Assembly: GCA_949284695.1 (NCBI GenBank)
Contig: CASDWJ010000005.1
Span: 90,093-154,092, forward strand
Source of the DNA: an uncultured Christensenella sp.
GTDB taxonomy: Bacteria > Bacillota > Clostridia > Christensenellales > UBA3700
DNA: 64,000 nucleotides
Direction: 5' to 3'
Shown here: positions 6,313-40,746 of the stretch, one piece after another
How positions within the stretch are numbered: position 1 is the stretch's first letter
Layout of the letters: every line of letters starts with the position of its first letter
Position numbers and translations under genes: made by a program
The notes under the pieces: model-generated
What the model was told of the DNA's origin: nothing
What the model saw: the letters and a program-made list of their open reading frames with translations, nothing else
The model's database searches: none

Positions 6313-6807
6313 TCATTCCGCTTTTGCGCGCATAATATAGTCCTCCATCACGAAGCCGTCTCCGATGTCTGTGTCGAGAGTGCGTTCGTTGACGAAGCCG
6401 TTTGCAAGATAAGCGGTTATCGCGCGCTGATTGTACTTGTTGACGTGCAGATAGACGGACGGGTAGCCGAGCTCTTTGGCGCGTTTTTTGACGAATTTCA
6501 GCGCGAGAGAGCCGTAACCCTTGCCGCGTATCGACGACAGTATGTAGAGTTTGGAGAGGAAAAGCGAGTCTTTTTCTTTCTCGAGCACGATATAGCCGCG
6601 TATTTTGCCGTCGTCCTCGACCGCATAAAATTCCGCTCCGTCGTTGAAAAGCGCGAGCATCGCGTCTTTGCTCTGAAAGTTGGAGACCATATAGTCTATC
6701 TGAGCGTCGTTGATGATGCCTTTGTAACATTCGTGCCAGATCTCGTCTGCGAGGCACGCTACTTCCGCGATGAGCGCGGGATCTGTGATTTTCCTTATTT
6801 CTGCCAT
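6313..6807 (-). CDS. GNAT family N-acetyltransferase
   Basis: A 164-residue acetyltransferase using acetyl-CoA; the substrate cannot be read from sequence. GNAT features are the beta strands ending in FLSKLYIL, the acetyl-CoA pyrophosphate loop SSIRGKGYGSLAL, and the C-terminal VYLHVNKYNQRAITAYLANGFV segment. The start at 6807 is chosen because homologous sequence begins here. The frame stays open upstream only as antisense of the divergent lipoprotein gene. No Shine-Dalgarno is present; a consensus promoter places the transcription start on the A of this ATG, so the mRNA should be leaderless. Confidence 0.88.
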   Translation of the reverse strand: MAEIRKITDPALIAEVACLADEIWHECYKGIINDAQIDYMVSNFQSKDAMLALFNDGAEFYAVEDDGKIRGYIVLEKEKDSLFLSKLYILSSIRGKGYGSLALKFVKKRAKELGYPSVYLHVNKYNQRAITAYLANGFVNERTLDTDIGDGFVMEDYIMRAKAE

Positions 6808-6813
6808 ATAATT

Positions 6814-6842
6814 ATTATAATATGCGCACCCGCCCGTGTCAA
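6814..6842 (-). promoter_or_regulatory. Consensus promoter giving a leaderless GNAT mRNA
   Basis: On the minus strand TTGACA (6842-6837), a 17-bp spacer and TATAAT (6819-6814) form a perfect housekeeping promoter. Only six bases separate the -10 from the ATG at 6807. Confidence 0.85.
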
Positions 6843-6870
6843 ACGCGTGCGCAAAACAGAAATAAAATAA

Positions 6871-6899
6871 TTGTCTTTTGAATGAGGATAATATATAAT
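6871..6899 (+). promoter_or_regulatory. Promoter of the 6907 lipoprotein gene (near-leaderless)
   Basis: TTGTCT (6871-6876), 17-bp spacer, TATAAT (6894-6899). Seven A/T bases separate the -10 from the ATG at 6907, and no Shine-Dalgarno is present. Confidence 0.75.
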
Positions 6900-6906
6900 A
6901 AAAAAT

Positions 6907-9900
6907 ATGAAGAAAGCGGTAGTGACCATTTTGCTGATACTCGCGTGCGCGTTGGTTTTCGTATCCTGCGATACGAAGGACGACGTCACCTATTATCAGG
7001 AGAACGTCGTCGGCAAATACGGCGACGGCATAAGTCTGACGGGCATAGTCGTGCCCGAGACCGCGCCTTCGGAATACGCCGACCTGCCGCGGGTCGAAAA
7101 GAGCGTATATTTCGACACCCGTCTCGAAGGGTGGCATTTCAGCGGAGTTTACGTAGTCAAAGGCGAAAAGATCACGGTCACTTTGCCCAAGGAAAAGGCT
7201 GACGGGAGCGTCACCGCGACCGTGGGCAGATATTCTCCGTCGTCTTTCGAGATCAGCCTTACCGAACAGACTACCACGTTCGTATCTACGGTATCCGGGC
7301 TTCTTGATTTCGATCTCGGGGAATGTTACGGCGACTCGTTCTGGCAGCTCAGCGTGTCGGGAGGCGTCAACGCGTCTTATTACAGACTGGGTCTCGACAG
7401 GGTCGCCGACTGGCAGAACAGCGTGGATTATGCCGTGGTCGACGGCACCAATATCAGGATATATCTGCCCGCAGAATACCTCGACGCTTCTTCCGACGTT
7501 GAAAACGCGGCGACCTGGTGGCGTTCGCTTTGCGAATATATGGACAGATACACCGTCGGAGTTTTCGGCGAGGACAAACTTTCTCCGACCGACGTTTTCG
7601 TTACGGGACAGGTGAGTCAACCCGCTTACGACGTCGATAAGGACGTGCTTTTCGTTCCCGTGTCGTATGCGGACAAACTGCTCGATCACGACGCGCTCGT
7701 GAGCGGCGGCGCGTGGGCGGTCATGCTTGCGCTGGCTAAGGGAAAAGCGGAATACGCGGGGGTTGACGACGCCGCATTGTCCGAAGTCGCGCAGATAGCG
7801 GCGGCGGGAGCTTTCGTCACTCTGACCGACGGGATACTGAGTGCCGACAGCAGTAACGAATACTGGATAAACAACGCCTACGACTGCCTTGCGATGAGCA
7901 TAGGCGGCGGGCTTGAGAGTTACGGCGATCTGGCGGCGTACGTCAATCTGATACACTCTTTCGGAGAGGAAAAAGTCGTAAAGACGGCTGTCGATTACGC
8001 TTCGGCGACTGATAACGGCGTGATCCCGCTGTCGCAGTATTTCTGCAATGCGTTTGCGGAATACGGCGTCGATCTTTCCGATTATTTCAACACAGTTTTC
8101 GGTCTCGGTACCGAGAGCGCGCAGAGCGGACTTCAGAAGTACGTTCCGTTGCAGAGCAGATACGCAAACGGTTGCGTCGCGACCGCCGACAAGACGGGCG
8201 TGACGGTAAATTCGGGAGAAAGGACGGAGTTCGACTTTGCTACGGAATACGTGACGACGGCGACGAACGCGACGCTCGTCAGGGTCATGCTCGGGGATTC
8301 GGAATGGAAAGCGGGAGCGGACGGGATTTACTCGTTCAGACCCGAGGATACGGAAAAGACAAAGGATTTCACGTTGGTTTTCGATGTCGACGGGCAGAGC
8401 GTGGAACTCAAGGGCAGATTTACCTGCAACATAGAAGTTTCGGTATTCACGCGGTACGAAAACGTGCCGTGGCGCGATATGAAAACCGCCGTCAAGGAGT
8501 ATGCGGAGAACGGCGCGGGATACCTCGTCGAGGAAAAGGCGCAGTCAAAAGCCGAGATCCCGCAGAACGAGATCGTCGACGACGGCGTCTATACTTTCAG
8601 CGTCAACAGAGGCGCGATACAGGTCGACGAGACCGCGACGTACGTCATTTACGTCAGGAGCAAAGGGGTGATCCGCGTCGACTTCGGCGTGCCCGAGTAT
8701 ATGTTCACGATGTTCGAAAACCCGATCACGGTCAACGAGTACACAGACGAGTTGTGCTACGAGATAGAGTTGCAGAAAGGAGTGTCGTATTATTACGATA
8801 TGTACGTTCTCGCGACCAAGGGCAACGCTTACGGCTGTCTCGGCATAAGCAAAAAAGGCGGCGAGATATCCGACATCGATCAGGATCATCTGATCTATCT
8901 GACCTTTGATAAGGACGAAGTGTCCGATTATCAAGCGCCCGCGATCGTGCCCGAAAGTTTCGGCGTGAGAAAAGAGGGAATGAGGTATTACGAAGAATCG
9001 GGCGCGGCGCTCAAAGAGTACCCGCAGGCGGAGAGCGGCTCATATCCCGCGGCGGCGACCGACGGCAACGACGATACAGCGTTCGTCTCCAAAGCGGCGG
9101 CGAAGCAGGTCTATCTGTTCGAGTACGAGGAGGCGGTTGAGACCGAGTTCATAGTGATAAAGACCTCTCTGACCGACGTCGCGTATACTGTCGAGTACAG
9201 TACGGACGGGGAGACTTTTATCAGATGCGACGCGGGTAGCGTGTACAGAAATATCAGCGCGCTTTTCCCCAAGGCGGTTACGGTAAAGAGCGTCAGGCTG
9301 ACCTTGTCGTCCGACAACGAGTTCGCGGGCGTGATCAAGGATATCTACTGCGGCAGATACTCCAACGAGGCGACTATCGTACCGTCCAACAGCAGCCGCG
9401 TGCTCTATCAGGGCAAATGGCAGTACAAGACGGGAGGCATAAGCGTCAACGGCTGGATACTCGAAAGTTACGGCGACGACGCGGCGATAGAGTTCAATTT
9501 CTACGGCACGGGCATTTCGGTCTACTGCGCTAAAGGCGACGTTTACGGCTCGATGCAGATACTCGTCGACGGCAAGCAGTACGGCTCGGTGGAACTCAAC
9601 AACGCGACCACGCTTTACGACTGCAACGTGTTCTCTGTTGAGTTCAGGAGCGCGGGCAAACATACGATAAGGATAGTTCCTTCGTCCAACGACGACATCA
9701 TCAATCTCGATTACTTCGCGGTTATGTATGCCGAACAGCAGGAAGCGGCGCCCGAGACGGGCAATCTGTGGTATTTTGCGATAATTCCCGCGGCGCTTAT
9801 CGTGATATTCGCGATCTGCGCGGTGCTTGATATAGCCGACCGCCGCAACAAAAAACGCAAAAAAGAGCTGAAAGCCGCGTCCTACGCGTCCGATGGGGCA

Positions 9901-9936
9901 CAAACAGAGAACGCAGACGGATCCGCAAAACAATGA
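6907..9936 (+). CDS. Large membrane-anchored surface protein with M60-like N-terminal region
   Basis: Exported 1009-residue protein of unknown function. A signal peptide with lipobox-like LVFVSC is followed by a stretch (~70-400) that resembles the N-terminal and core parts of M60/enhancin-like glycopeptidases (GVYVVKGEKITVTLP, SVSGGVNASYYRLG), but I find no HExxH zinc motif. A discoidin/F5-8C-like domain follows at ~705-820 (TDGNDDTAF and EFIVIKTSLTDVAYTVEYS), then a second carbohydrate-binding-like beta domain at ~825-950. A C-terminal membrane helix lies near residues 957-980 (LWYFAIIPAALIVIFAI) with a basic cytoplasmic tail. Monocistronic. The M60 resemblance is tentative; surface location is well supported. 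Confidence 0.72.
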   Translation: MKKAVVTILLILACALVFVSCDTKDDVTYYQENVVGKYGDGISLTGIVVPETAPSEYADLPRVEKSVYFDTRLEGWHFSGVYVVKGEKITVTLPKEKADGSVTATVGRYSPSSFEISLTEQTTTFVSTVSGLLDFDLGECYGDSFWQLSVSGGVNASYYRLGLDRVADWQNSVDYAVVDGTNIRIYLPAEYLDASSDVENAATWWRSLCEYMDRYTVGVFGEDKLSPTDVFVTGQVSQPAYDVDKDVLFVPVSYADKLLDHDALVSGGAWAVMLALAKGKAEYAGVDDAALSEVAQIAAAGAFVTLTDGILSADSSNEYWINNAYDCLAMSIGGGLESYGDLAAYVNLIHSFGEEKVVKTAVDYASATDNGVIPLSQYFCNAFAEYGVDLSDYFNTVFGLGTESAQSGLQKYVPLQSRYANGCVATADKTGVTVNSGERTEFDFATEYVTTATNATLVRVMLGDSEWKAGADGIYSFRPEDTEKTKDFTLVFDVDGQSVELKGRFTCNIEVSVFTRYENVPWRDMKTAVKEYAENGAGYLVEEKAQSKAEIPQNEIVDDGVYTFSVNRGAIQVDETATYVIYVRSKGVIRVDFGVPEYMFTMFENPITVNEYTDELCYEIELQKGVSYYYDMYVLATKGNAYGCLGISKKGGEISDIDQDHLIYLTFDKDEVSDYQAPAIVPESFGVRKEGMRYYEESGAALKEYPQAESGSYPAAATDGNDDTAFVSKAAAKQVYLFEYEEAVETEFIVIKTSLTDVAYTVEYSTDGETFIRCDAGSVYRNISALFPKAVTVKSVRLTLSSDNEFAGVIKDIYCGRYSNEATIVPSNSSRVLYQGKWQYKTGGISVNGWILESYGDDAAIEFNFYGTGISVYCAKGDVYGSMQILVDGKQYGSVELNNATTLYDCNVFSVEFRSAGKHTIRIVPSSNDDIINLDYFAVMYAEQQEAAPETGNLWYFAIIPAALIVIFAICAVLDIADRRNKKRKKELKAASYASDGAQTENADGSAKQ

Positions 9937-14958: not shown

Positions 14959-14987
14959 TTGCATTACGCGCGCGCATTGTTTATAAT
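14959..14987 (+). promoter_or_regulatory. Promoter giving a leaderless prmA mRNA
   Basis: TTGCAT (14959-14964), 17-bp spacer, TATAAT (14982-14987). Six bases (ATAGCT) separate the -10 from the prmA ATG, and there is no Shine-Dalgarno. Confidence 0.8.
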
Positions 14988-14993
14988 ATAGCT

Positions 14994-15926
14994 ATGAAAT
15001 ACAAAGAGATTACGGTCAATACGACCACCGAAGCAAGCGAACTCGTTGCCGACATACTTTACAGCGCAGGAAGCGGCGGCGTCAGCATTTTTGACAAAGA
15101 GGACTTCATCGACCTGATGAAAAGCGACGTGATCTGGGATTACGTCGACGAATCCGTACTCGAGAAAAACGAGGTCGTCAAGGTCAAAGGCTATTTTGGG
15201 GAGGACGGCTTCGACGCGGTCAGAAAGGGCGTGGAAGAAGAACTCGCTCTGCTGCGCGAGAGGAGCGTTTTCCCGCTCGGCTCGCTCGAGATCTCGGTCG
15301 CGGACGTAGACGAGGAGGACTGGTCCAACGTCTGGCGCAAATATTACAAGCCGATACCTTGCGGCAGGGTCGTAATCGTTCCCGACTGGCTGACTTACGA
15401 GCCGACGGAAGATCAGAGGATAGTGCGCCTCGACCCCGGCATGGCGTTCGGCACCGGAGAGCACGAAAGCACCCGTATATGCCTTACCCTTCTTCAGAAA
15501 GAGGACGTGAAAGGAGCGCGCGTCGCCGATATAGGCACGGGCAGCGGCATACTCGCGATCGCGGCGGCAAAGCTGGACGCGAAAGAAGTTGACGCATACG
15601 ATATAGACGCGACTGCTGTAAAAGTCGCGGAAAAGAACTGCGCGCATAACGGAGTGGACGGCGTAGTCAAAACAGAGTGCGGCAATCTGCTCGACAAGTG
15701 CAGCGGCAGTTACGACATTCTGCTTGCCAACATCACCGCGGATATATTGTCGGGCATGGCTCCCGATATAGGCAAGTTCGTCAGGAAGGGCGGCGTGATA
15801 ATAATTTCGGGCATACTTCTGCCGTACGAGCAAAAGGTTGTCGACGCGTTTGCCGCGGCGGGTCTTACCGTAAAAGACAGGCTCGGACAAGGCGAGTGGT
15901 GCGGCTTCGCCTATACGAGGAACTGA
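14994..15926 (+). CDS. prmA: Ribosomal protein L11 methyltransferase PrmA
   Basis: SAM-dependent methylation of L11. 310 residues: N-terminal L11-recognition domain beginning MKYKEITVNTTTEASELV, the family motif GMAFGTGEHESTR, SAM-binding DIGTGSGILAIAAAKL and catalytic-region LLANITADIL. The start at 14994 matches the family N-terminus. Upstream codons in frame belong to the promoter and previous terminator. Its stop overlaps rsmE (TGATG). Confidence 0.95.
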   Translation: MKYKEITVNTTTEASELVADILYSAGSGGVSIFDKEDFIDLMKSDVIWDYVDESVLEKNEVVKVKGYFGEDGFDAVRKGVEEELALLRERSVFPLGSLEISVADVDEEDWSNVWRKYYKPIPCGRVVIVPDWLTYEPTEDQRIVRLDPGMAFGTGEHESTRICLTLLQKEDVKGARVADIGTGSGILAIAAAKLDAKEVDAYDIDATAVKVAEKNCAHNGVDGVVKTECGNLLDKCSGSYDILLANITADILSGMAPDIGKFVRKGGVIIISGILLPYEQKVVDAFAAAGLTVKDRLGQGEWCGFAYTRN

Positions 15927-36398: not shown

Positions 36399-36427
36399 TT
36401 GCAAAAATATTTTCATTCGTGTAATAT
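36399..36427 (+). promoter_or_regulatory. Promoter giving a leaderless asp23 mRNA
   Basis: TTGCAA (36399-36404), 17-bp spacer, TAATAT (36422-36427), then six bases TAAATT and the ATG at 36434; no Shine-Dalgarno. Confidence 0.78.
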
Positions 36428-36433
36428 TAAATT

Positions 36434-36784
36434 ATGGCAGTAAAGACGACTAACAGATACGGAAGAATTACTATTTCAGACAGCGCCATCGCTATGACGG
36501 CGCACTATTCTGCCGCCGATTGTTACGGCATAGTGGATTTGGTTTCCAGACGTCTGACCGACAGTCTTATCGAACTTTTCAACAAGCAACCCGCTGGGAA
36601 AGGCGTAAAGGTCGAGACGGTAAATAACAAGATATATCTTGAGTTGTATGTAGTTCTCAGAGACGGCGTAAACGTCGAAGCGGTCTGCGATTCCGTACGC
36701 AGTACCGTCAAGTACGACGTGGAGACTTACACGGGCATGCGTGTGAGCGGTATAGTTGTGAACGTCGTCGGCGTGAGACTTTAA
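36434..36784 (+). CDS. Asp23/Gls24 family envelope stress protein (YloU)
   Basis: 116 residues of the Asp23 family; the Bacillus counterpart YloU sits at the same place. Typical start KTTNRYGRITISDSAIAMTA followed by DCYGIVDLVSR and the late VRSTVKYDVETYTGMRVSGI segment. Usually encoded next to the DAK kinase protein, as here. Exact role is unsettled. The start is fixed by homology and by the leaderless promoter. Confidence 0.92.
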   Translation: MAVKTTNRYGRITISDSAIAMTAHYSAADCYGIVDLVSRRLTDSLIELFNKQPAGKGVKVETVNNKIYLELYVVLRDGVNVEAVCDSVRSTVKYDVETYTGMRVSGIVVNVVGVRL

Positions 36785-38725: not shown

Positions 38726-38754
38726 TTGTTCGTATTATCAGTGTTTGGTATAAT
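38726..38754 (+). promoter_or_regulatory. Promoter giving a leaderless recG mRNA
   Basis: TTGTTC (38726-38731), 17-bp spacer ending TGG, TATAAT (38749-38754), then six bases GTCGGT and the recG ATG. No Shine-Dalgarno. Confidence 0.82.
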
Positions 38755-38760
38755 GTCGGT

Positions 38761-40746
38761 ATGGATCTGATAAAGCTGAAAGGAGTGGGCGCAAAGACCC
38801 TCGAAAAACTTGCCGCGCTCGGAATAAACGACGAAAGGACTCTGCTCGATTTTCTTCCCAAGAGTTACTGGGATATGACGAAAGAGGGCGATCTGTCTGC
38901 CGCAGAGCACGGCGATTATATTCTGTTGAAAGGAGAGCTGACGCGTCTTACAAAAGTTGCGAGAGTGCGCGCGGGGCTCAACTTCTTCAGGGGCGATCTT
39001 TGCGTCGGAGAGCGTACGGTCAGGCTCGTGTGGTTCAACGCGCCGTATCTGAGAGGCAATCTCGAAGAAGGCGCGAGATATACCGTCTGGGGCAAGATCT
39101 CTAAGAGGGACGGCAGGACGGAGCTTGTAAACCCCGGTTTTGAACCTGAGGGAGGAGACCGTCTCGACGGAGTCGTGCCCGTTTACGCGACCCGAGGTCT
39201 CGTGCCGCAGGCGGTGATGAGAAAGATAACCGCTGACGCCGTGGAAAGGTGCACCGTAGAGCCGCTTCTCGAGAGCGACGAACTTATGCCGCTCGCAGAC
39301 GCGTACAGATATGCCCACGTGCCTGTTGACGTCAGAACGGCATATATCGCTCGCAGAAGGCTTGCGCTCGAGGAGCTGACGGCAAGGCTGTGCGCGTACC
39401 GTCTCGCCAAGTCGGGTGAACGCGCAAAGACGAGGGTTTATAAAGGCGATTTTCACTATATGGACGATCTGGTCGCATCTTTGCCGTTTGCTTTGACTGA
39501 GTCGCAGAAAAAGGCGGTCGTAGAAATTATGGACGATCTGAAAAGCGACAAGAAGATGAACAGGATGCTTCTCGGTGACGTCGGGTGCGGCAAGACGGTC
39601 GTTGCGCTGATAACAATGGCGTACGCCGCGCGCTCCGGTTATCAGTCGGCTTTGATGGCGCCGACAGAAATTCTCGCAAGACAACATTATGAAAACGCTG
39701 TAAAATTTCTCGCGCCTTTCGGTATAAGGTGCGCCTATCTTGCGGGCAGTCTCACTCAGTCTGAAAAGAAGGGTATATATAATGATATAAGGCAGGGGCT
39801 CGTCGACATCGTCGTCGGCACTCACGCCGTGATCAGCGATAAGGTGGAATTTTTCAACCTCGGCTATATCGTCATAGACGAATTGCACAAGTTCGGCGTA
39901 AGACAAAAGAGCATGCTTGAAAACAAGGCGAGTTCCGTCGATGTGGCTATAATGAGCGCGACTCCGATACCGAGGGTGCTTGCTCTCGGGGAATACGGCG
40001 ACGTTGACGTCAGTGCGATCGAGAGCAGAAAGACCATTGAGGAGTATCCATCAACCTTCGTCGTGCCTGCGCATAAAGAAAAGGCGATGTTTTCGTTCGT
40101 CAGGGAACATTGTCTCAAAGGAGAGCAGGCTTACATTGTGTGTCCGCTCGTGGAGGACAGCGAAGGACTTGAAGTGAGCTCGGCAAAGTCCGTATACGAA
40201 CAGCTGAGGAAGGGCGAGTTCAAAGATCTGTCGGTCGGGCTTGTGTACGGCGGCATGAAGGACGAGGCGAAAGAAAAGGTGATGCGCGCGTTTTACGACG
40301 GCGAATACAGCGTGCTTGTCGCGACGAGTGTGGTCGAGGTCGGTATAGACAGCAAGGACGCTACCGTGATATGCGTTATGAATGCCGACAGGTTCGGGCT
40401 TGCGTCGCTTCATCAGCTGAGGGGCAGAGTCGGGCGCAGGAGCGGTCAGACCTCTTATTGCTTTCTGCATACGTTGAAAGACGGCGAGTGCGAGAGGCTG
40501 AAGATCCTCTGTGACAACGGCGACGGCTTTGCCATTGCAGAGGAGGACGCAAGGCTGAGAGGGTACGGGGATTTCCTCGGCTTCAGGCAGAGCGGCGGCG
40601 CGGGCGGCGTATTTGTCGATAAGAAACTTTTAGAGAGGAGCAGACGCTGTCTCGAGCTGCTTATGAGACCTGAAAATAAGGACAAACTCGAGAATCCGAG
40701 AATAAAAGACTTCTTAAATAAGGCAAAAAATATATCAATGACCTGA
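38761..40746 (+). CDS. recG: ATP-dependent DNA helicase RecG
   Basis: Branch-migration helicase for replication fork regression. 661 residues: N-terminal wedge/OB domain, then motif I GDVGCGKTVVALI, Ia APTEILARQHYE, II VIDELHKFGVRQK (usual DEQH is DELH here), III MSATPIPRVLAL, V VVEVGIDSKDATV and VI QLRGRVGRRSGQTSYC. The N-terminus MDLIKLKGVGAKTLEKL fits the family. Own leaderless promoter and own terminator. Confidence 0.96.
   Translation: MDLIKLKGVGAKTLEKLAALGINDERTLLDFLPKSYWDMTKEGDLSAAEHGDYILLKGELTRLTKVARVRAGLNFFRGDLCVGERTVRLVWFNAPYLRGNLEEGARYTVWGKISKRDGRTELVNPGFEPEGGDRLDGVVPVYATRGLVPQAVMRKITADAVERCTVEPLLESDELMPLADAYRYAHVPVDVRTAYIARRRLALEELTARLCAYRLAKSGERAKTRVYKGDFHYMDDLVASLPFALTESQKKAVVEIMDDLKSDKKMNRMLLGDVGCGKTVVALITMAYAARSGYQSALMAPTEILARQHYENAVKFLAPFGIRCAYLAGSLTQSEKKGIYNDIRQGLVDIVVGTHAVISDKVEFFNLGYIVIDELHKFGVRQKSMLENKASSVDVAIMSATPIPRVLALGEYGDVDVSAIESRKTIEEYPSTFVVPAHKEKAMFSFVREHCLKGEQAYIVCPLVEDSEGLEVSSAKSVYEQLRKGEFKDLSVGLVYGGMKDEAKEKVMRAFYDGEYSVLVATSVVEVGIDSKDATVICVMNADRFGLASLHQLRGRVGRRSGQTSYCFLHTLKDGECERLKILCDNGDGFAIAEEDARLRGYGDFLGFRQSGGAGGVFVDKKLLERSRRCLELLMRPENKDKLENPRIKDFLNKAKNISMT

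Follow-up and report, generated by a model that had tools for sequence, protein, structure and literature searches.

Does the translation of some clostridial genes begin at the very 5' end of their mRNAs? The question is raised by a divergent gene pair in a 64,000-nucleotide stretch of DNA (the window; positions 90093-154092 of contig CASDWJ010000005.1) from an uncultured Christensenella sp. of the order Christensenellales, the genome of which (assembly GCA_949284695.1) comprises 1.85 Mb (1,854,082 bases) and is 81% complete. The pair consists of a gene for a GNAT acetyltransferase and a gene for a lipoprotein-like protein, and in both cases a -10 hexamer lies immediately upstream of an ATG that lacks a Shine-Dalgarno (SD) motif. 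The presence of this layout is confirmed, and it recurs at gene starts beyond chance. Very probably, it gives rise to leaderless, or nearly leaderless, mRNAs from ordinary sigma-70-type promoters, with the start codon at or near the transcription start site (TSS). The features of the pair are the following:

6313..6807, minus strand: GNAT acetyltransferase gene; ATG at 6807-6805, without SD motif; Pfam Acetyltransf_1, E-value 1e-15
6814..6842, minus strand: GNAT promoter; -35 TTGACA at 6842-6837, spacer of 17, -10 TATAAT at 6819-6814
6871..6899, plus strand: promoter of the lipoprotein-like gene; -35 TTGTCT at 6871-6876, spacer of 17, -10 TATAAT at 6894-6899
6907..9936, plus strand: lipoprotein-like gene; open reading frame of 1009 aa, divergent from the GNAT gene

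The -10 hexamer and the start codon

The gap between the -10 hexamer and the ATG is 6 nt at the GNAT gene (6813-6808) and 7 nt at the lipoprotein-like gene (6900-6906, followed by the ATG at 6907-6909). The distance between the two start codons is 100 bp, with an intergenic space of 99 bp, and no run of at least four bases of the SD consensus is present at either of them. The first-pass annotation of this DNA had described the same two arrangements, TTGACA-17-TATAAT-6-ATG and TTGTCT-17-TATAAT-7-ATG without SD motifs, and its coordinates proved to be correct. The GNAT promoter is one of two promoters with a 12/12 match to the consensus within the first 20 kb of the window, a region with 20 promoter-like sites compared with 9.9 in shuffled sequences. 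The lipoprotein-like protein has an N-terminal domain that matches Pfam M60-like_N (24.7 bits, cut-off 23), and a putative lipobox, FVSC, was seen by eye near its N terminus. An open frame of 547 aa (6313-7956, minus strand) is in frame with the GNAT gene and extends antisense over the beginning of the lipoprotein-like gene; it misled the gene caller, and the GNAT start was missed.

The spacing was then counted at gene starts of six sampled genomes. In what follows, G, L, f and g denote genomes, loci, families and genera, respectively, and G000 is the genome of the window, which was sampled with 426,078 bases (the window and 20 further stretches) or about 23% of its 1,854,082 bases. Genes were called by codon usage in 20-kb stretches, and their starts were picked regardless of upstream signals. 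A -10-like hexamer was allowed at most one mismatch to TATAAT, with A2 and T6 fixed, and the count expected at each position was derived from the non-start ATGs of the same genome. These control ATGs include some missed true starts, and therefore the comparison is conservative.

In G000, 10 of 352 starts have the hexamer at gap 6, while 1.31 are expected (Poisson 1.2e-6), and gaps 5 and 7 are found at two starts each. With a hand-corrected gene list (GNAT added, one spurious call removed) the count at gap 6 is 11; all other start counts for G000 refer to the uncorrected list. The same peak is present in a second genome of the genus, G012 (14/329 starts, 1.83 expected, Poisson 9.9e-9), and in two genomes of other families, G273 of f14 (7/288, 0.52 expected, 1.2e-6) and G396 of f16 (5/293, 0.73 expected, 9.2e-4). 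Two of the six genomes serve as contrasts, since no gap-6 peak was found in G352 of family f4 of the same order (0/312 starts versus 1.3 expected) or in G065 from the class but outside the order (2/309 versus 3.87). The excess persists when the window is held out from G000 (8/299, 1.14 expected, 2.5e-5) and when four orthologues of window genes are removed from G012 (11/325, 1.81 expected, 3.4e-6).

Three further features were tested at the starts with a -10 hexamer at gaps 5-7, an SD motif being defined as at least four bases. First, SD motifs are nearly absent from these starts: they occur at one of 14 in G000 compared with 240 of 338 other starts (Fisher 1.9e-6), at 0/18 versus 236/311 in G012 (3.7e-11), and at 0/9 versus 177/279 in G273 (1.5e-4). 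Both the genome-wide excess and the lack of SD motifs had been predicted by the first-pass annotation, and because they came out as predicted its interpretation of these genes as leaderless is supported, as far as DNA can speak to the ends of transcripts. Second, a -35-like box (at least 4/6 matches at a spacer of 16-18) accompanies the hexamer more often than it accompanies the same hexamer at non-start ATGs, that is, in 6/14 versus 13/96 cases in G000 (Fisher 0.015), 9/18 versus 30/152 in G012 (0.0073), 4/9 versus 12/74 in G273 (0.065), and 5/7 versus 12/70 in G396 (0.0049), so that the enrichment falls short of significance in G273 only. Third, the base at -1 is a pyrimidine at all 32 starts of this kind in G000 and G012, compared with 385 of 649 other starts (1.7e-7). 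The latter agrees with the pyrimidine-purine (YR) step at -1/+1 that was reported for the TSSs of every species in a Cappable-seq study of gut bacteria (PMC4782308). Taken together, the lack of SD motifs, the -35 boxes and the pyrimidine at -1 are the marks of promoters with the A of the ATG as +1.

The layout characterizes a minority of genes. A -10 hexamer at gaps 5-7 is found at 14 of 352 starts in G000 and at 18 of 329 in G012; because about 4 and 5.5 of these cases, respectively, are subtracted as chance occurrences, the share of leaderless-like genes in the genus of the window is about 3-4%, beside an SD-led majority. If only divergent starts and those with 50 bp or more upstream are considered, the raw numbers are 12/184 (G000) and 16/153 (G012). 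The window itself, with five such genes in roughly 55 called genes, is a local high, and the earlier count of five in about seventeen promoters is too high to be read as a rate. Besides the window genes, those flagged in G000 encode a Y-family DNA polymerase, a Mur ligase, nadD-HD, a LysR regulator, an M14 peptidase, a DUF6512 protein and an SH3 protein (10 flagged proteins scanned, 7 with a match). In G012 (10 scanned, one without a match) they encode a radical SAM protein, an FtsA/PilM-like protein (weak), SpoIIGA, NAD kinase, SurE, a metalloenzyme-superfamily protein, a Spo0A C-terminal domain, LysR and nadD-HD. Some of the flagged genes in both genomes are expected by chance, and no functional theme is claimed. 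Two genes of the G012 set, SpoIIGA and the stand-alone Spo0A C-terminal domain, are of the sporulation type:

L106:3301-4083 and L112:14504-14848, both plus strand: sporulation-type genes of G012, leaderless-like

Conservation at single genes and spread across families

Three further genes of the window have the same architecture, as the first-pass annotation had noted:

14959..14993, plus strand: prmA promoter and 6-nt gap; TTGCAT-17-TATAAT (14959-14987)
14994..15926, plus strand: prmA (ribosomal protein L11 methyltransferase); ATG without SD motif; Pfam PrmA, E-value 2.7e-77
36399..36433, plus strand: asp23 promoter and 6-nt gap; TTGCAA-17-TAATAT (36399-36427)
36434..36784, plus strand: asp23-family gene; ATG without SD motif; Pfam Asp23, E-value 1.6e-23
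38726..38760, plus strand: recG promoter and 6-nt gap; TTGTTC-17-TATAAT (38726-38754)
38761..40746, plus strand: recG helicase; ATG, no SD motif of at least four bases; Pfam RecG_wedge, E-value 4.5e-13, and DEAD, E-value 1.1e-23

The gap is thus 6 or 7 nt at all five window genes, and the -10 hexamer of asp23, TAATAT, has two mismatches to TATAAT. The window RecG is 83-88% identical to proteins of uncultured Christensenellaceae metagenome-assembled genomes and of Candidatus Ornithoclostridium faecavium, the genus Ornithoclostridium being placed by NCBI within Clostridia, Christensenellales.

For the GNAT gene 30 loci were found (L063-L092), and the 12 nearest, which belong to the genus, were counted. 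A -10 hexamer precedes the ATG at all 12, with a gap of 6 in eight (one of them read by eye), 7 in two and 9 in two. The lipoprotein-like gene has a gap of 7 at 10 of the 12 GNAT-flanking loci (6 by script, 4 by eye). Because the layout is conserved across these loci, the divergent pair is an old arrangement within the genus. At the two GNAT loci with gap 9, L068 (G005) and L070 (G011), GTT or ATT is found where the ATG of gap 6 would fall, and the ATT of G011 could possibly be a rare start codon. No TATAAT box was seen by eye at three GNAT loci of other genera (L075-L077), and one further genome of the genus, G001, had no GNAT match.

At prmA, all 11 genus loci examined have an exact TATAAT at gap 6 and a -35-like box at 17 nt. 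Gap 6 is also found outside the genus in the same family (L048 of g3, L050 of g2) and outside the family in L052 (f8), while L057 (f10) has gap 7. Overall, TATAAT is present at gaps 6-9 in 16 of the 26 loci examined, none of which has an SD motif of at least four bases, and it is absent from 10, of which 8 have an SD motif; L040, L060, L061 and L062 were omitted from the 30 loci found (L033-L062), as the match stopped short of the N terminus. The loci with an SD motif and no -10 hexamer before the ATG, all outside the genus, are L042, L046, L047, L051, L053, L054, L056 and L059.

All 13 genus genomes have a gap of 6 at nadD-HD (10 scored by script and the other 3 by eye; L206 and L207 were omitted as weak matches), and at least seven different gap sequences occur, for example AATCGT, AACCTT, ATTCTT, AAACAT, AAAAAC, AGAGCT and GGACGT. 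For asp23, tblastn gave matches in 9 distinct genomes, of which 7 have TAATAT at gap 6, and for recG four of the 10 relatives compared have TATAAT at this gap (12 loci, of which L031 and L032 were omitted as distant). These locus comparisons show that the length of the gap is mostly preserved across the genus although its sequence varies, and that at prmA and recG lineages exchange a -10-led start for an SD start. The leaderless interpretation is further supported, since the length of the gap is conserved while its letters change in relatives.

The phylogenetic spread was surveyed by comparing exact TATAAT-N6-ATG with TATAAT-N12-ATG, which keeps the codon phase; with its exact hexamer and exact gap, the survey misses variants such as that of asp23. 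The N12 control replaced an earlier one with the reversed pattern (41 genomes), in which TATAATN{5,7}ATG was found 88 times in G000 versus 36 times reversed. In a sample of the class (245 genomes), N6 and N12 were found 41 and 12 times in the genome of the window, 357 and 189 times in ten other genomes of the order, and 14,201 and 13,391 times in the 234 genomes outside the order, a slight general excess of 1.06. Four genomes reached q<0.05, namely G273, G000 and G140 of the order and G239 (f60) outside it. Outside the order, family f60 (genus g79, for example G239) has N6 238 versus N12 124 in 6 genomes and is possibly an independent case within Clostridia, and family f57 has a weaker excess (675 versus 534, 9 genomes). 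Because f60, and weakly f57, stand out, the trait is not strictly limited to Christensenellales.

In a sample of the order (161 genomes, 33 families), 16 of the 33 families have an N6 excess at q<0.05. It is strongest in f14 (350/115), f16 (327/106), f102 (379/153), f1, the family of the window (606/310), and f3 (246/109). The other 17 families fell short of q<0.05, nine of them being represented by a single genome each; among the 17 are f4 (115/144), f95 (76/76), f12 (122/145), f19 (248/216), f93 (174/165), f15 and f103. The excess therefore sits in about half of the Christensenellales families and is small elsewhere, and because it differs family by family the trait follows families.

Probable leaderless transcription and its alternatives

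The promoter layout, its excess, the lack of SD motifs, the conservation and the phylogenetic spread are direct observations, and the most likely process behind them would be the following. RNA polymerase would bind the -35 and -10 elements, and the first transcribed base would be the A of the start codon, which lies 7 nt beyond the -10 hexamer (8 nt at the lipoprotein-like gene). The ribosome would then initiate on the 5'-terminal AUG itself, with no need for SD pairing. Such starts form a minority class, very probably kept by selection at particular genes, and are a property of certain Christensenellales families. We infer from the layout both the 5' end of the mRNA itself and translation from the 5' AUG.

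Several points weigh against this explanation. The SD contrast is not significant in G396 (2/7 versus 173/286, Fisher 0.12), and the preference for a pyrimidine at -1 is weaker outside the genus (8/9 versus 180/279 in G273, 5/7 versus 189/286 in G396). Some -35 boxes are weak (recG L026-L028), and recG is SD-led in five of the ten relatives and has neither signal in one. Two of the 12 genus loci of GNAT (G005, G011) and prmA L049 have a gap of 9, where the start would fall about 3 nt inside a short leader. The gene starts come from a simple in-house caller, and orthologues of related species are non-independent samples. Furthermore, additional upstream TSSs may exist, as in C. phytofermentans, though the SD motifs are missing here.

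The alternative that survives best, albeit a rather unlikely one, is that the mRNAs are nearly leaderless, with a TSS a few bases off the A, so that leaders of 1-5 nt would be formed or one base would be lost; such leaders would have no room for an SD motif. The choice of TSS shifts by 1-2 nt at many promoters, and the gap of 7 at 10 of 12 loci of the lipoprotein-like gene and the gap of 9 at GNAT of G005 and G011 and at prmA of G018 are in line with this possibility. However, the peak is confined to one position, gap 6, in each of G000, G012, G273 and G396, and a pyrimidine is present at -1 at 32 of 32 starts; both findings favour the A as +1 for most of them.

It is improbable that the promoters are secondary and that the main transcripts begin upstream and carry leaders. 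In C. phytofermentans, 4% of the intergenic sense TSSs were reported to be leaderless, and generally another upstream TSS and a typical ribosome binding site were present (PMC5171806); in the window, recG and asp23 belong to a series of genes on one strand. Yet SD motifs are missing at most of the starts in question, so that ribosomes would find no binding site on a leadered transcript, and the divergent pair has a single strong promoter match per strand within its 99 bp.

Still less probable is the possibility that TATAAT belongs to a longer 5' untranslated region and promotes translation there, as an AT-rich enhancer or S1-type non-SD binding site like those of Bacteroidetes. AT-rich upstream signals are known and are reported to be hard to separate from -10 elements in bulk statistics (PMC5397173). 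However, -35-like boxes at 16-18 nt are enriched beside the hexamer relative to control ATGs, and such a box lies at 17 nt at all 11 genus loci of prmA; the exact 6-nt register and the YR step at -1/+1 are promoter features, and the same genes have SD-led orthologues. The signals found here thus have -35/-10 geometry, unlike the AT-rich signal of the Bacteroidetes type. Chance spacing within AT-rich intergenic DNA, where TATAAT-like hexamers are common and would account for about 4 of 14 candidates in G000 and 5-6 of 18 in G012 (three positions times background), is a negligible explanation in view of the held-out excess in both genomes, the two contrast genomes without a peak and the conservation across the genus.

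Leaderless genes in Clostridia and other bacteria

The mechanism is already known, and no earlier report for this lineage was found: the titles and abstract beginnings of the literature searched contained no report of leaderless genes in Christensenellales or Christensenella. The first-pass annotation had stated that leaderless mRNAs are not regarded as a regular class in Clostridia. This holds for species with mapped transcripts, as far as the cited sections of the studies describe them, since the numbers are small: 15 potentially leaderless genes in C. difficile (PMC7438776) and about 2-3% in three solventogenic clostridia (PMC9045289). It holds less well for Firmicutes at large, for which such genes had been predicted in silico before. 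As predicted for the genes described here, TSSs are occasionally located at start codons in the mapped Clostridia; there they are reported as rare, whereas here the starts are SD-less and the spacing is conserved in the genus.

In the in silico study of Zheng 2011, leaderless genes were predicted in 56 of 209 Firmicutes genomes, with an average of 4.2% of genes, and the cases were concentrated in Lactobacillales and Mycoplasma (PMC3160421); the word stem 'clostridi' is absent from its main text. The share of genes is thus similar to that reported here, and the lineages are different. A strong TG before the -10 hexamer, as in Lactococcus, is not what was noted here. The TA-led genes of Actinobacteria and Deinococcus-Thermus resemble the present ones in having a -10 element directly before the start, no SD motif and an SD-led class alongside, and they are reported to make up more than 20% of genes and to have a TAnnnT core (PMC3160421). 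In the genus of the window, by contrast, the share is about 3-4%, the hexamer is a fuller TATAAT, a -35 element is often recognisable, and the host belongs to Clostridia. Cappable-seq of gut bacteria has revealed leaderless TSSs as a regular class in Akkermansia muciniphila (10%) and Bifidobacterium pseudolongum (15%), there demonstrated by RNA; both species are of other phyla, and no Christensenellales are among the four species analysed (PMC4782308).

It should also be considered what such a class might do for the cell. We tentatively propose, as one possibility among others, that Christensenellales have inherited a two-way start system, in which a leaderless minority is kept by selection, genes like prmA and recG switch between the two modes, and about half of the families have the system while the others have lost or never gained it. 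Translation of this set of genes could continue under conditions that impair SD-dependent initiation, and the set might thus serve as a stress or slow-growth programme.

Christensenellales are a widespread and mostly uncultured order of gut bacteria, and by these results leaderless initiation, so far regarded as rare in Clostridia, would become a regular class in several families of the order. One practical consequence concerns gene prediction, since programs that are tuned to SD motifs may place starts wrongly here, as the in-house caller did at the GNAT gene. In addition, the order would offer a natural experiment on the choice of initiation mode, in which closely related families have or lack the trait, and orthologues differ between species, some being leaderless and others SD-led.

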